Assembly (NCBI RefSeq): GCF_001854225.1 | Contig: NZ_CP015208.1 | Span: 434,001-498,000 of the forward strand | DNA length: 64,000 nt | Direction: 5' to 3' | Origin: Candidatus Rhodoluna planktonica | GTDB lineage: Bacteria > Actinomycetota > Actinomycetes > Actinomycetales > Microbacteriaceae | In this document: in pieces, positions 9,767 through 14,401 of the stretch | Position numbering within the stretch: position 1 is the stretch's first letter | Layout of the letters: each line of letters opens with the position of its first letter | Program-made: the position numbers and the translations under genes | Notes under the pieces: generated by a model | What the model saw: only the letters and a program-made list of their open reading frames with translations | The model's database searches: none | Told to the model about the DNA's origin: nothing

Positions 9767-9831
9767 AGGTTTTCAGTCAATTCACAGCCGGCGGCATTCC
9801 ATTTGTCTCAGCTTTGGCCTAGTCTTATTGA

Positions 9832-9850
9832 GCCTCAGATGATTTGAGGC
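9832..9850 (+). other. Small hairpin upstream of tmRNA
   Basis: Inverted repeat gcctca/tgaggc with a 7-nt loop, 16 bases before the mature tmRNA 5' end. It could be part of the precursor or a weak terminator for smpB; there is no T-run. Low certainty. Confidence 0.35.
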
Positions 9851-9866
9851 ATTGGTAACTAAACAT

Positions 9867-10237
9867 GGGGATGATCGGTTTCGACAGGGTACTTTGTGCC
9901 TGGAGGAAGCGGGTCGTGAATGTAGCGTCAACACGTAAATGTCCGCTGCAAAAAATAAGTGCTAAATCATCACGCACTGACTTTGCCCTAGCCGCTTAAT
10001 AGCGCCTAGCCCGAAGTCCGTCGGTCCAGACCTGATTTCAATCTGGTTTCCGGCGTCATTTAGAAATCTTGCTGGGTAGTTACGCCTTAGGGCTACCCGG
10101 GACTCAAACTCAGGCTGGGCTCGTCGGTTATGTCGCTTCAAGCTAGCACCGGGGCCAAGTAGAACCTTATTGAAGCTACACCCGTAGAAGATCCAGAATC
10201 AGTTCTTTGGACGGGGGTTCAATTCCCCCCATCTCCA
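9867..10237 (+). ncRNA. ssrA: tmRNA (transfer-messenger RNA)
   Basis: Starts with ggggatgatcggtttcgaca, the standard tmRNA 5' end. The 3' T arm is ggggg-ttcaatt-ccccc, followed by catctcc, which closes the acceptor stem with ggggatg, and a discriminator A. The next bases are caa, so CCA is not encoded at this copy. The tag ORF begins at GCT 9961 and reads AKSSRTDFALAA, ending in TAA TAG (9997-10002). The LAA terminus is the usual protease recognition end. Length is about 371 nt. A second partial copy of the 3' end lies 1.38 kb downstream (see the islet entry). Confidence 0.96.
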
Positions 10238-10238
10238 C
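10213..10238 (+). repeat. Direct repeat, left copy (attL-like, in tmRNA 3' end)
   Basis: T-arm and acceptor 3' strand of ssrA: five G, ttcaatt, six C, atctccac. The same element recurs at 11597-11624. tmRNA 3' ends are known integration sites for tyrosine-recombinase islands, and a duplicated end is the usual mark of such an insertion. Confidence 0.75.
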
Positions 10239-10269
10239 AAATCAGTTGGTCACATTTCAACCGATAGGC

Positions 10270-10325
10270 AAAAAGCCCGTAATTACTGGGAAGTAGAAAT
10301 ACTCTCTTAGTGGTGGCGGGCTTTT
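10270..10325 (+). terminator. Possible terminator after tmRNA
   Basis: aaaagcccg (10270-10278) pairs with cgggctttt (10317-10325) around a long loop of about 38 nt that may fold further. It would end the tmRNA transcript inside the islet. The long loop makes it less certain than the terminator at 11630. Confidence 0.5.
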
Positions 10326-10447
10326 CGTTGCTTAAAAGGTGTTGCTTAAAATTTCAGCTGATTTGTGATGTTTGAAACTGGGTAAATCCAAAGCAATACT
10401 TCAAGTGCTCAAAGGTGTTTCTCAGGAAACAGCAGTAGATTTGGAGT

Positions 10448-10903
10448 GTGCTGAAAAGCCATCAAGCGAGTAAATGGATTGTGGTGACCATCGTCGCCCT
10501 CATGGCAGGCTTCGCACCTATTTTCCACTCGATGTGTATTCAGGCCAGTTCAACCTCTGCGTCAAGCCACATCATGGCTGACGGCAACATTATGGGAATT
10601 GAGTCTGAAGCCGACACAACGATGGTCTCCGACTCAACGGCCCATGCCCTCGCAGTTAGCCACGACCAAGCCCCCGTCAATGCCCCAGGCAAGCCGCTTG
10701 GCGCAGGAGACCCCTTGACTTTGGTGACACTGTTCATTGTTCCTGCCTGCCTGCTCGTTGTTGGTTTCCTCTTGCTGTTCAGAAAATCGACAGAACTGAA
10801 ATTCTCGGAGACTTTTTTCACGGCTCTCTTGGCAAGACCGCCAACATGGCGATATTTTCCTAATGCCGTCAATCCTCTTGCCTTGGGGATTAGCCGAACA
10901 TAA
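10448..10903 (+). CDS. Unknown two-helix membrane protein (islet cargo)
   Basis: 151 residues, not recognised. GTG start at 10448 with only weak ggag upstream. Layout: a short basic N-terminus; a first hydrophobic helix (about residues 11-28, VVTIVALMAGFAPIFHSM); an extracytoplasmic segment of about 60 residues rich in Ser, Ala, Met and His (SSHIMADGNIMGIE, TAHALAVSHD); a second helix (about 93-113, TLVTLFIVPACLLVVGFLLLF); and a cytoplasmic tail. The Met/His-rich loop and the next gene, a DUF305 lipoprotein, suggest a link to copper or another metal, but this is inference. The gene is probably cotranscribed with DUF305 (73-base gap). Confidence 0.6.
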   Translation: MLKSHQASKWIVVTIVALMAGFAPIFHSMCIQASSTSASSHIMADGNIMGIESEADTTMVSDSTAHALAVSHDQAPVNAPGKPLGAGDPLTLVTLFIVPACLLVVGFLLLFRKSTELKFSETFFTALLARPPTWRYFPNAVNPLALGISRT

Positions 10904-10976
10904 GCCGACCCGTGAAAAGCGAAATGCTCAAGCATTGCCGCACCCCAAAATTTTCAAATTCACGATAGGAAAAATA

Positions 10977-11579
10977 ATGAAATCTTTAACAATTCGCTCC
11001 ATCGCAATCGGCGGAGCAATCCTGCTAGCATCACTCTCTCTCGCAGGTTGCACAATCAACCTCGGTTCAGCTGGGTCAAACAATGATTCAGGAATGATGG
11101 ACAACGGCGGAATGATGGGAAGCAACAGTTCCCAGTTCTCGGGAACCGACATTATGTTCGCCCAGATGATGATTGTCCATCACCAGCAGGCAGTTGATAT
11201 GGGAACGCTTGCCGAAACTCGTGCGTCAAACCCAGAGGTAAAAACCTTGGCAGCACAGATTAAGTCTGAACAGTCACCCGAAATCACGCAGATGAAGGTT
11301 TGGCTCAAAACCGCCAACGCTCCAACTGAAATGGGCCACGACATGGGAATGGGCGGATTACTCACCGACGCTCAAATGACAGCATTGAAAAATGCGTCAG
11401 GTGCCGAATTCGACAGGCTCTACCTTGAAGGCATGATTGGCCACCACGAAGGAGCAATCCAAATGGCCCAAATGGTGACCGAATCAAATAACGCCGAAGT
11501 GAAAGCTCTCGGAAACGCCATCATCGCATCGCAAACCAAGCAAATTGCATACATGAAGGAACTTCTCGCAAAGGTGTAG
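10977..11579 (+). CDS. DUF305 lipoprotein, possible metal-handling protein
   Basis: 200 residues. ATG 10977 has agga 7 bases upstream; the frame is open from 10863, but this start gives a proper lipoprotein signal with lipobox SLAGC (Cys25). A Met/Gly-rich linker (SGMMDNGGMMGSN) precedes the DUF305 ferritin-like four-helix domain with two characteristic repeats: DIMFAQMMIVHHQQAVDMG and FDRLYLEGMIGHHEGAIQM. Paired His and Met residues in both repeats resemble metal ligands. DUF305 proteins are often encoded near copper-resistance genes, and an extracytoplasmic copper role is plausible but unproven. Located in the tmRNA islet. Confidence 0.88.
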   Translation: MKSLTIRSIAIGGAILLASLSLAGCTINLGSAGSNNDSGMMDNGGMMGSNSSQFSGTDIMFAQMMIVHHQQAVDMGTLAETRASNPEVKTLAAQIKSEQSPEITQMKVWLKTANAPTEMGHDMGMGGLLTDAQMTALKNASGAEFDRLYLEGMIGHHEGAIQMAQMVTESNNAEVKALGNAIIASQTKQIAYMKELLAKV

Positions 11580-11596
11580 GTGTGGTAATCGGGGGA

Positions 11597-11626
11597 GGGG
11601 GTTCAATTCCCCCCCCATCTCCACCA
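11597..11626 (+). repeat. Direct repeat, right copy (relic tmRNA 3' end, attR-like)
   Basis: Five G, ttcaatt, eight C, atctccacca. It matches the tmRNA T arm, acceptor strand and CCA, except for two extra C, which would spoil the T-arm/acceptor geometry. No other tmRNA sequence precedes it, so it is a relic rather than a second gene. Confidence 0.75.
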
Positions 11627-11629
11627 CTT

Positions 11630-11658
11630 AAAAAGCCTCCAGCAATGGGGGGCTTTTT
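11630..11658 (+). terminator. Intrinsic terminator (probably the original ssrA terminator)
   Basis: aaaaagcctcc (11630-11640) pairs with ggggg-cttttt (11648-11658) around a short loop, ending in a T-run. It lies 4 bases after the relic tmRNA end and also ends the DUF305 transcript. Confidence 0.85.
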
Positions 11659-11687
11659 ATTTAACGGCATCGCTGCTGCTCAGGGTC

Positions 11688-11700
11688 TACATTAGAAGGG
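11688..11700 (+). promoter_or_regulatory. -10-like element, leaderless start for the TRIC gene
   Basis: TACATT at 11688-11693, then 6 bases, then GTG 11700. This spacing places the expected transcription start on the start codon. No ribosome site or good -35 is seen. Confidence 0.5.
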
Positions 11701-12347
11701 TGAATCCCATCGATACCGTTGAGTCGGTTTTTGCAAACTCAAATTTGCTTTTTGAAGTTCTCGGTACTCTGGCGTTCGCTCTATCCGGGTTAATCGAAGC
11801 CGCCCGTAAGAAACTTGACTTTGTCGGCATGGCGATGGTTTCGGCATTGGCCGCTTTTGGCGGCGGAACCTTGCGCGATGTTTTGCTTGATCGCCGACCG
11901 TTCTTCTGGGTTCAAAATGAATTTTGGCTCTGGGTTTTGTTGGCCATTGTGTTGGCGGCGATGCTCTTTGTCCGCAGTCGCCATCTTGAGGTGACAGCCC
12001 GAGCAACCACTTGGCCCGATGCCCTCGGCTTGGGTATTTTCACCGCATCGGGAACTCAGATTGCACTCAACGCGGGTCTTTCACCGCTGGTCTCGATCAT
12101 TATGGGAATCATCACGGCGGTCTTTGGAGGAGTGCTGCGCGATGTCGTGGTTAACGAGATTCCACGAGCTTTTAGTGACCACCAACCTTATTCGGTGATT
12201 GCTTTCATCGGCGGTTGGGTTGTAGTTGGTCTCAATTCTTTGGGCAGCAGTGATTTCTGGGCAATTACAGTTGGGGCGCTGTTTATCATCGCGGTAAGAA
12301 TCTTGGCCATCGTTAGAGGATGGCGTTTGCCAGAGTGGCGAGCCTAG
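11700..12347 (+). CDS. TRIC-type cation channel family protein (UPF0126/YicG)
   Basis: 215-residue membrane protein with about seven helices, built from two homologous three-helix repeats. Each repeat carries the family motif: ALAAFGGGTLRDVLLDRRP in the first and GIITAVFGGVLRDVVVNEIP in the second, plus FTASGTQIALNAG. Prokaryotic TRIC proteins form trimeric monovalent-cation channels; the physiological role is not well defined. GTG start with a -10-like hexamer and no ribosome site. It stands alone between the tmRNA islet terminator and the minus-strand HicB-like gene. Confidence 0.9.
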   Translation: MNPIDTVESVFANSNLLFEVLGTLAFALSGLIEAARKKLDFVGMAMVSALAAFGGGTLRDVLLDRRPFFWVQNEFWLWVLLAIVLAAMLFVRSRHLEVTARATTWPDALGLGIFTASGTQIALNAGLSPLVSIIMGIITAVFGGVLRDVVVNEIPRAFSDHQPYSVIAFIGGWVVVGLNSLGSSDFWAITVGALFIIAVRILAIVRGWRLPEWRA

Positions 12348-12397
12348 CAACTAGCCCTGAGTTTGGCGGCCTAAGAGGCCTGCGAAGGCTTGGTGAG

Positions 12398-12790
12398 CTA
12401 AGAGGCGATCGAAGTTTCGGTGCAGGGCGCAAGCTGAGCAACACGCTGCGGGGTTACTCCAAGCAAAACTGCGATATCGCGCATTGTTAGACCTTCGTCG
12501 CGCATGCGAGCAACGACATCGCGAATTTCGGCAGATGCCTCTTCTTGCATCCGCTGAGCTGCAATCATTTTTTCTTGTGCAGCCTCAAGGTCGCAAATGA
12601 TGCCGGGCATAACCGCCTCAACTTTTACTACGATGTCGCATTTTGACTCGCCAGTTTCTTTTTCGGCCAGTGCCTTGATGGCCTCGGTAGCTTTGTCGAG
12701 TCGTTTAGCCGAGGTCTTGTAGCCACCAAGTTGTGGAACAGCGACTAGCCAGCCGTCATTGTGACGTTCGCAAACTGCCTTGATTTCCAT
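12398..12790 (-). CDS. HicB-like protein with C-terminal helix-turn-helix
   Basis: 130 residues. The N-terminal half (MEIKAVCERHNDGWLVAVPQLGGYKTSAKRLDKATEAIKALAEKE) resembles the partial RNase H fold of HicB antitoxins. A long charged helix (about 68-95) follows, then a helix-turn-helix RDEGLTMRDIAVLLGVTPQRVAQL near the C-terminus. A strong ribosome site (gaggagg) precedes ATG 12790. No HicA-type toxin (about 60-80 residues with a conserved His) lies next to it, so it is an orphan regulator or antitoxin-like protein. The repeats just upstream (12836-12879) could be its operator. HTH and domain split are seen; function is inferred. Confidence 0.65.
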   Translation of the reverse strand: MEIKAVCERHNDGWLVAVPQLGGYKTSAKRLDKATEAIKALAEKETGESKCDIVVKVEAVMPGIICDLEAAQEKMIAAQRMQEEASAEIRDVVARMRDEGLTMRDIAVLLGVTPQRVAQLAPCTETSIAS

Positions 12791-12835
12791 GAGACCTCCT
12801 CTGTCACCTGATGCTGCCGCAACACTTAGGAAAAT

Positions 12836-12879
12836 AAGTAAAGGGCTACTTGACTAAACAAGTAAAGTAATGCTTTACT
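12836..12879. promoter_or_regulatory. Repeat cluster AGTAAAG, putative operator/promoter
   Basis: Two direct copies of AAGTAAAG (12836-12843 and 12860-12867) 24 bases apart, and an inverted copy CTTTACT (12873-12879), the last two forming an AGTAAAG-N5-CTTTACT palindrome. aagta/tactt also pairs within 12836-12851. TTGACT (12850-12855) could be a -35 with TTTACT (12874-12879, spacing 18) as -10 for the DoxX-like gene. The region lies between the divergent HicB-like and DoxX-like genes. Confidence 0.55.
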
Positions 12880-12923
12880 AAAAGGGTAATCCAAATCAGG
12901 AAAAAAACAAGCGTAGGAGAAAA

Positions 12924-13340
12924 ATGAATTACGTATGGGCAATCGCCGCACTAGCGGTTTCGGTTTTTGTAGCAAACGGCTTTTTCAAAGCTGGTAAATT
13001 CAAAGCCACATCTAGTCGCGAAACACTTTTGGGCGCAGGCTTTGGCTGGATTGAGAAAATCCCATTCGGCGTTGTTCGCCTTATCGCTTGGCTAGAAATC
13101 ATCGGTGCAGCCGGAATCGTTGTCGCACCTTTGGCCGCCTGGATCCTGCCTGGTTTCGAATGGGCACAAATCTGGGGAATCCTTGCCGCTGCTGGTTTGG
13201 CTTTGACCATGGTTGGCGCCATCATCGTGCACGCAGCTCGCAAAGAGAGCAAGTACACCTTCAAAATGAATGCCAGCTTGTTGCTAGCAGCTGTTGTTGC
13301 CGGCGTATTGCAGGCTCTAGTAGTTTTGCCGCTGTTCTAA
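12924..13340 (+). CDS. DoxX-like membrane protein
   Basis: 138 residues with four predicted membrane helices (about 3-20, 48-74, 82-100 and 112-136). The pattern FKAGKFKA followed by VRLIAWLEIIGAAGIVVAPL is the DoxX-like family arrangement, in which a helix with a conserved Glu (WLEIIGAAGI) follows the first loop. The family is linked in some bacteria to redox or thiosulfate metabolism, but many members have no known role. A ribosome site (aggag) precedes ATG 12924. A terminator follows. Confidence 0.8.
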   Translation: MNYVWAIAALAVSVFVANGFFKAGKFKATSSRETLLGAGFGWIEKIPFGVVRLIAWLEIIGAAGIVVAPLAAWILPGFEWAQIWGILAAAGLALTMVGAIIVHAARKESKYTFKMNASLLLAAVVAGVLQALVVLPLF

Positions 13341-13352
13341 ATCTTTAGTTAG

Positions 13353-13392
13353 CCCCCGATTCTTTCCCTGCCGGGTTAGGGTCGGGGGTTTT
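13353..13392 (+). terminator. Intrinsic terminator
   Basis: cccccga (13353-13359) pairs with tcggggg (13382-13388), followed by tttt. It ends the DoxX-like transcript and faces the end of the minus-strand gene at 13427. Confidence 0.8.
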
Positions 13393-13426
13393 CTTTACCC
13401 GCGAAACCCAATGCGAGGCCGATCAG

Positions 13427-14401
13427 CTACTGAATCGCGCTCAAGTAAGTGCCGCCAAAGATGGGGAGCAAACTTTTTACGGTGGCGGTGACGTCACCCT
13501 TATCGACCGAAACATCAGCTCGGATGCCGCCATCGGTTGCAGTTTGCGAGACCAACCATTTCTGGTGCGCGGTTACCGGTTTTCCGCCCGCAAAAGCTCT
13601 GATGCCCATGACCGCTTCGGCGGTGCCGGATACATCCGGCAAGCCGACATTCATCCAATGTGAGTCTTGGCTATCGGTCGAGGTGAGAAATTTATAGGCG
13701 GCTCGCAATGCAACCAACTTGGATTTGACGGCAACCGCACCGCCAGAATTCTTCACGGCAACCAAGGCCTGCATAGCAAGTCCGGTAGCGCTAACTGAAC
13801 TGCTGTCGGTCACGCCATCAAATCCGCCATCCGAGTTGGCAAAGGCCAGCAGTTTGTTTGCGACTTTGTCAGCGAGTTCTGTTTGGTTTTGACTCTTCAG
13901 GCCGAGTATTGCCCAGGCATAGTCGACGCTGCCATTAGGTGCTTGAGCCAATGTCCCATCTATCGCAATTATCGACCTCAGTCGGGTGAGTACAACTTTG
14001 CTTAGCGGACCGTTGGGCACACGCAAACTCTTGGATGCTGCCAGAAATTGTCCGGCGAGCGCCGGAATCAGCTGGCGATTCGAGTCGTAAAGATATCCCG
14101 AATTAGGGTTTGTCGAGGCACCAACTGACACTGCCGTGGTACCCAGTAGAAATTTTGCCGGCTTCAATTGTTGGGCAAATTTGACGCCAGTTCCTCGCCG
14201 CTGGATGAGCGCTTCAAGGCTTGTGCTCCACTGAATGTTGCCAGCGCTTGTGATTGCGGTTCCGCCGTCGTTGGTAAAAGCGTTGCTCACGAAAGTTTGT
14301 GTTTTCGCGCTAATCGGTGCAGCGCTGGCCGAGGCTGGATTGACCAGCAAAGCTAGTGCACTGAGCCAGACAGCTCCTCTAAAAACTAGGTTTTTTCGCA
14401 T
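13427..14401 (-). CDS. Secreted alpha/alpha-toroid protein (prenyltransferase/squalene-oxidase repeat type)
   Basis: 324 residues with a clear signal peptide (MRKNLVFRGAVWLSALALLVNPASASA, cleavage near residue 27). The mature part contains repeats of the terpenoid-cyclase toroid type, notably SVDYAWAILGLKSQ and NSDGGFDGVTDSSSVSATGLAMQAL, then TATDGGIRADVSVDKGDVTATVKSLL. The DGGF and DGGI turns are the typical QW-like repeats. Catalytic cyclase motifs such as DXDD are absent, so it may be a binding or scaffold protein. It lies 10 bases downstream of the CPBP protease gene and is probably cotranscribed with it. Confidence 0.7.
   Translation of the reverse strand: MRKNLVFRGAVWLSALALLVNPASASAAPISAKTQTFVSNAFTNDGGTAITSAGNIQWSTSLEALIQRRGTGVKFAQQLKPAKFLLGTTAVSVGASTNPNSGYLYDSNRQLIPALAGQFLAASKSLRVPNGPLSKVVLTRLRSIIAIDGTLAQAPNGSVDYAWAILGLKSQNQTELADKVANKLLAFANSDGGFDGVTDSSSVSATGLAMQALVAVKNSGGAVAVKSKLVALRAAYKFLTSTDSQDSHWMNVGLPDVSGTAEAVMGIRAFAGGKPVTAHQKWLVSQTATDGGIRADVSVDKGDVTATVKSLLPIFGGTYLSAIQ

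Follow-up and report, generated by a model that had tools for sequence, protein, structure and literature searches.

A two-gene islet between duplicated ssrA 3′ ends in Candidatus Rhodoluna planktonica, probably an integrase-less remnant of a small integrated element

INTRODUCTION

In the 1.42-Mb single-contig genome of the freshwater bacterium Candidatus Rhodoluna planktonica (G000 in the comparisons below), two genes are enclosed by a duplicated ssrA 3′ end, which raises the question of how they came to lie there and whether they can still move. The window, that is, the whole stretch of DNA analysed here, comprises 64,000 nucleotides (bases 434001–498000). From the letters alone, the locus had been taken for a tyrosine-recombinase island at ssrA that was either decayed or mobilised in trans (the original prediction). 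Integrase-less islets at ssrA are already known from Dehalococcoides, in which 15 ssrA islands without an integration module, beside others that have one, were suggested to be cis-mobilizable (PMC3146451, excerpt). In the titles and abstract starts covered by our search, no report of such islets in Rhodoluna was found.

RESULTS AND DISCUSSION

The 3′ end of ssrA is duplicated

The T arm and acceptor strand of ssrA had been predicted to occur twice, 1.38 kb apart, and the alignment bears this out (Table 1). With the left copy, GGGGGTTCAATTCCCCCCATCTCCAC, as its end, the tmRNA is intact by both ARAGORN (9867–10238) and Rfam (9867–10240), as anticipated. The right copy, GGGGGTTCAATTCCCCCCCCATCTCCACCA (11597–11626), keeps CCA, has its C6 tract expanded to C8, and is followed by a terminator-like hairpin, again as described beforehand; judged by eye, similar hairpins also stand behind the ssrA of relatives. 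The equivalent TTC positions, 10218 and 11602, are 1,384 bp apart. The core match extends leftward with one gap (GGACGGGGG vs GGA-GGGGG), so that it covers 30 bases of the left copy and 31 of the right, and the copies differ by one C missing in GGACGGGGG and two C added in the C6 tract.

Table 1. Features of the ssrA locus (positions are those of the window)
Feature	Position	Strand	Evidence
ssrA (tmRNA), intact; its last bases are the left att copy	9867..10240	+	ARAGORN; Rfam RF00023, 158.3 bits
Left copy of the ssrA 3′ end (attL core), then AA	10213..10238	+	Sequence, alignment
Strong hairpin with short U tract, probably an element-borne ssrA terminator	10271..10325	+	Fold z −6.6; G060 counterpart z −5.7
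Direct repeat GTTGCTTAAAA-GGT-GTTGCTTAAAA; left-end candidate arm-type sites for an integrase	10327..10351	+	Genus and family pattern search
151-aa protein, no Pfam or NCBIfam family, hydrophobic segments by eye	10448..10903	+	Relatives neighbour DUF305 genes
DUF305 protein of the CopM metallochaperone family; N-terminus lipoprotein-like by eye	10977..11579	+	PF03713, E 7.7e-45; NF049983, 91.8 bits
Right copy of the ssrA 3′ end: attR remnant; CCA kept, C6 tract longer by two C	about 11594/11597..11626	+	Sequence, alignment
Terminator-like hairpin following the right copy; most likely ssrA's own original terminator	11630..11658	+	Fold z −2.8; terminator scan
Core-genome neighbour, Gly_transporter	11700..12347	+	Pfam PF03458; within 177 bp behind ssrA in 3 relatives

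The right copy reached a local alignment score of 23 to the ssrA end. In the rest of the window (outside 9801–14300) the best scores were 10 on the forward and 13 on the reverse strand, and five single-base shuffles gave at most 10, which confirms that the duplicated end is real and above chance. The left copy reads CAA where CCA would be expected. This part of the original prediction holds as an observation but is less special than thought: CCA is encoded in only 15 of the 39 ssrA genes counted in the genus, the rest having CTC, CAA, CTT or others after the discriminator base. In the many ssrA genes that lack it, CCA is presumably added by an enzyme.

A regenerated ssrA end on one side and a displaced fragment on the other are also the layout of the Islander tRNA and tmRNA islands (PMC4383910, excerpt). 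The islet differs from them in having no integrase gene inside. Islander calls are said to rest on that gene.

The islet carries a putative copper-handling pair and no recombinase

The predicted absence of a recombinase gene between the copies was upheld by open frames, Pfam and tblastn with the integrase of a related element at ssrA in G060. No remnant of that integrase or of its neighbouring replication gene rose above noise in the islet either (best tblastn E values of 0.6 and 1.1), a result that counts against descent from such an element. Both genes present are intact. The first encodes a protein without a known family, the second a DUF305 protein whose score is above the curated cut-off for the CopM family (91.8 vs 90 bits with NF049983), and the stop codon of the second lies 14 bp ahead of the right copy. 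In passing the NCBIfam cut-off the cargo gene is like CopM (PMC4335983, excerpt); unlike there, its partner is the 151-aa protein. The copRS genes named together with CopM in that excerpt were not recognised by eye in the neighbouring frames.

Relatives of the 151-aa gene, some of them weak, occur in 10 further genomes among the 398 family genomes searched, and a DUF305 gene adjoins the relative in all eight loci fetched at length. DUF305 itself is not rare, being found in 23 of the 67 genus genomes, and has the 151-aa neighbour in 2 of the 24 genus loci listed (the window's own genome and G001). The G001 pair adjoins a multicopper oxidase gene, with P-type ATPases and a CsoR-like gene also present according to our own reading of the open frames. 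The CopM match and the company of the G001 relatives thus suggest that the 1.4-kb islet carries a copper-handling pair. A multicopper oxidase had no match in the own genome.

At 0.489, the GC content of the islet is near the lowest 1% (0.487) of same-size windows (0.519, sd 0.015), which is not decisive. A promoter scan returned 6 sites vs a shuffle mean of 1.1, all by consensus match only, and one of these predicted promoters, at 10372–10400, stands ahead of the 151-aa gene. A cargo donor was sought in the DUF305 tree and given up, as the pairing of G000 with G008 is weak and the tree is poorly resolved, with unsettled bootstrap and long branches. In G001 (L162, C1:308000–322000), the copper cluster with the related gene pair adjoins a tRNA-Ser gene and a short tyrosine-integrase frame.

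A putative arm repeat connects the left end with an integrase-bearing element

Behind the left copy stand a hairpin, probably an ssrA terminator brought by the element, and a direct repeat. The hairpin does not appear in the list of a simple terminator scan, which gave 2 sites vs a shuffle mean of 2.2, a point against its role in the preferred reading. Allowing up to 3 mismatches, GTTGCTTAAAA-N3-GTTGCTTAAAA occurred in 3 of the 67 genus genomes, once in each and just behind ssrA (+89 in the window, +67 in G036 and +67 in G060), and the reversed pattern gave no match in the same 67 genomes. Exact motifs with spacers of 2–20 yielded six sites in 4 of the 67 genomes, all at these ssrA islets. Across the 398 family genomes, which included 11 genus members, the own genome being one of these, the repeat was found in two, both of this genus; viral contigs contained none, while the ssrA core was present in 58 stretches of them. 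The repeat may be an integrase arm-binding site.

The original prediction expected larger islands at the same point in sister genomes, and one case came to light. G060 has a 5.6-kb element that encodes a tyrosine integrase, a DNA methylase and a replication protein and that has both the arm repeat and a second ssrA end. In order, the ssrA end is followed by a hairpin, two copies of GTTGCTTAAAA, a 495-aa Phage_integrase protein (PF00589), a Rep of the REP_ORF2-G2P family (PF23343) and an N6_N4 methylase, which has a convergent 245-aa neighbour without a Pfam family; that this neighbour is a restriction enzyme is a guess. At the right end, GTTGCTTAAAA stands twice with 22-bp spacing, then CTTCAATTCCCCCCATCTCCACCA, and the right ssrA end at about +5650 is unmutated. 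Beyond it, the flank can be aligned with what G015 and G034 have immediately after ssrA. Read from its sequence, the G060 layout is what integration at the ssrA end should leave. Among the four proteins scanned, no transfer gene was recognised.

The left repeat is common to the window and the integrase-bearing G060, in both at ssrA, and the islet would therefore be an integrase-less descendant of such an element. The likeness does not reach further along the DNA: outside the core and the arm repeat, the left end has no convincing alignment with G060 or G036, and this, together with the repeat lying at +89 and not at +67, speaks against the descent. The G060 integrase has matches at E 1e-8 in 4 of the 67 genomes including G060 itself. 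One of the others is G036, in which the relative is distant (31% over about 120 aa) and lies on a different contig. In the own genome no match was obtained at E 1e-8; a Xer-like match appeared at E 4.7e-4, and two frames of 304 and 310 aa match PF00589, both away from ssrA.

The right end is of another type and lacks arm sites

No right arm pair was found at the right end of the islet, where the best motif match had 3 of 11 mismatches, as in shuffles; degenerate right arm sites were therefore discarded as a candidate. The right ends of G060, G019 and G036 have the arm pair, with a spacing of 22–23 bp in the G060 family, and those of G060 and G019 read GTTTGC/GTTGC before the right core. The islet's right copy instead reads GGA-GGGGG as in ssrA and has the ssrA T-stem that is missing from the other two. 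These letters set its right end apart from the G060 type, which weakens the simple descent from a G060-like element, and it may derive from another element.

Such a right end would also be expected of a chimera, in which the left end of a G060-type element and the right end of an ssrA element with a longer core accreted in tandem and the middle was lost. A longer duplicated ssrA end of about 55 bp does exist in G029, and among ICEs and IMEs decayed elements are reported to accrete with incoming ones (PMC5704250, excerpt). However, neither a middle att copy nor a second left end is left at the locus, and a single element with its own type of right end is simpler. We regard the chimera, which overlaps with the preferred reading of a decayed remnant, as possible but doubtful.

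Empty, complete and reduced ssrA sites in the genus

A tmRNA match above the cut-off was obtained in 43 of the 67 genus genomes, and 40 of the 43 loci were examined: 39 oriented loci with downstream sequence, plus G060, whose ssrA start is off the contig. G003, G016 and G065, with contigs that stop soon behind ssrA, and a second G004 match (L069) with one base behind it, were left out. The empty sites expected in relatives are present. In G007, G025 and G049 the Gly_transporter neighbour follows 114–177 bp behind ssrA (3 of the 22 loci with that neighbour), and in G015 and G034 a conserved gene of 271–278 aa follows directly. None of the five is a close sister, and the exact empty site of the own lineage was not seen, which tells against the remnant reading.

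A second ssrA end was detected in 6 of the 40 loci: clearly in G000, G019 and G029, weakly in G024, in G060, and in mutated form in G036. It was not found in the other 34, of which G005, G023 and G048 have less than 1.5 kb behind ssrA. G019 has the right arms, the right ssrA end and a 42-aa Rep tail 90% identical to the G060 Rep, and has no integrase frame; a flank copy stands where the left end, the integrase and most of Rep would be. Within 0–2.6 kb behind its ssrA (L041), about 0.3 kb of flank, which takes in the terminator and the beginning of the next gene, lies on both sides of a methylase/245-aa-type pair, and the left flank copy ends in a truncated 83-aa frame. G036 has a 1.5-kb islet with both arm pairs (+67/+81 and +1390/+1413) and no integrase frame. 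It contains a collagen-like gene, with a score under the Pfam cut-off, and the C-terminal part of a SAICAR synthetase. The G036 right core is TTCAATCCTTAACATCTCC, with CCCCCC changed to CCTTAA. The SAICAR-synthetase piece, a 141-aa C-terminal part of purC (L051, +954 to +1379), lies immediately ahead of the right arm pair and looks like a captured bit of chromosome. These loci likely represent stages of decay, with G060 complete, G019 half lost, G036 retaining both ends with a mutated core, and G000 retaining one end.

The flank duplication of about 0.3 kb in G019 shows that sequence at this place can be copied, and the islet has no trace of an integrase. Both would suit a scenario without an integrase, in which slippage or homologous rearrangement duplicated the ssrA end and the gene pair arrived by chance. 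Such an event leaves unexplained why the arm repeat, absent from 64 of the 67 genus genomes, should stand behind ssrA as it does in the integrase-bearing G060, and we consider it very improbable.

The islets are scattered over the SmpB tree. Among its 34 rows, which do not include G060, the islets of G000, G019, G029 and G036 need four changes, no fewer than with shuffled labels (mean 3.9), and at least three of the four are forced by well-supported branches. Three changes may equal one gain and two losses; because the cargo differs, separate arrivals of the islets are likely.

This scatter also bears on the alternative that the islet is a non-autonomous, cargo-only element moved in trans by an incoming G060-type integrase that binds the arm repeat. 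The integrase-less islets of the window and G036 keep the repeat exactly, and G036 has both arm pairs within 1.5 kb and, on another contig, the distant relative of the G060 integrase. However, the islet has no right arm pair, the right cores are mutated in both repeat-bearing integrase-less islets (C6 to C8 here, CCTTAA in G036) and not in G060, and the own genome is without a match to the G060 integrase at E 1e-8. We hold mobilisation in trans of this islet to be quite unlikely. Likewise unlikely is a general scheme in which ssrA acts as a docking place where streamlined freshwater genomes take up single gene pairs: cargo-only elements of 1.4–1.5 kb, without movement proteins, would land there in the genus and be moved in trans by the Int-Rep-methylase element via the arm sites they have in common with it.

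A decayed remnant fits best

In our view, the islet is thus probably what remains, without its integrase, of a small element that a tyrosine integrase inserted into the 3′ end of ssrA. Of the two fates left open by the original prediction, the sequence favours decay over mobilisation in trans because of the absent right arm pair and the mutations in the right copy; the tyrosine-recombinase island at ssrA itself is supported. The attP of the element would have carried an ssrA end and a terminator. Integration would have rebuilt a working tmRNA at the left and pushed the original end, with its CCA and terminator, to the right. The integrase, the replication gene and the right arm pair, the former presence of an integrase and Rep being something we infer, would later have been lost or replaced, leaving the two-gene copper pair, and the right copy, by then functionless, would have drifted. 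Most likely the islet has worn down to a relic and lost its mobility. Excision is probably no longer possible, and the islet may have been kept since ssrA is unharmed and the cargo may help under copper stress.

Decayed CIME-like remnant is the best name for the islet, and cis-mobilizable elements are the closest known kind. Like a CIME it has no integration or transfer genes, its genes encoding the CopM-like protein and the protein of no family, and it has att copies on both sides (PMC5704250, excerpt). By sequence it also keeps attL, with core and arm repeat. Whereas a CIME keeps both attL and attR (PMC5704250, excerpt), the attR of the islet consists of a core copy with two extra C and no arm sites. 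The ssrA islands of Dehalococcoides are alike in lying behind ssrA, in having the gene at one border and its directly repeated end at the other, and in lacking an integration module; their proposed integrase is a serine recombinase and their repeat is 20 bp (PMC3146451, excerpt). The islet differs in implying a tyrosine integrase, in its size of 1.4 kb and in having one end without arm sites.

Integrase-less islands often stay guesses. Here an integrase-bearing match, putative arm sites, empty sites and decay stages come together in one genus, and the decay route of ssrA islands and the end sequences they need become testable. Very small genomes may retain single useful genes from passing elements.

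Other differences behind ssrA

Many other loci in the genus have varied genes in the gap behind ssrA. Duplicated ends account for only part of this variability, and many gene differences carry no att mark. In G029 (L044, +1398 to +1453), an ECF sigma factor gene and its partner precede the 55-bp copy of the ssrA end, and the next core gene follows it; the sigma factor gene and its partner also occur in G028, where no copy of the ssrA end was found. The short second end in G024 (L057, +106 to +128), with 22 bases and a flank resembling the sequence that follows ssrA in G033 and G007, is perhaps the scar of a lost islet. In G004, two full-length tmRNA matches lie near contig ends (C2:162570–162939 and C6:1–368), which may be an assembly effect, contamination or a real second ssrA.
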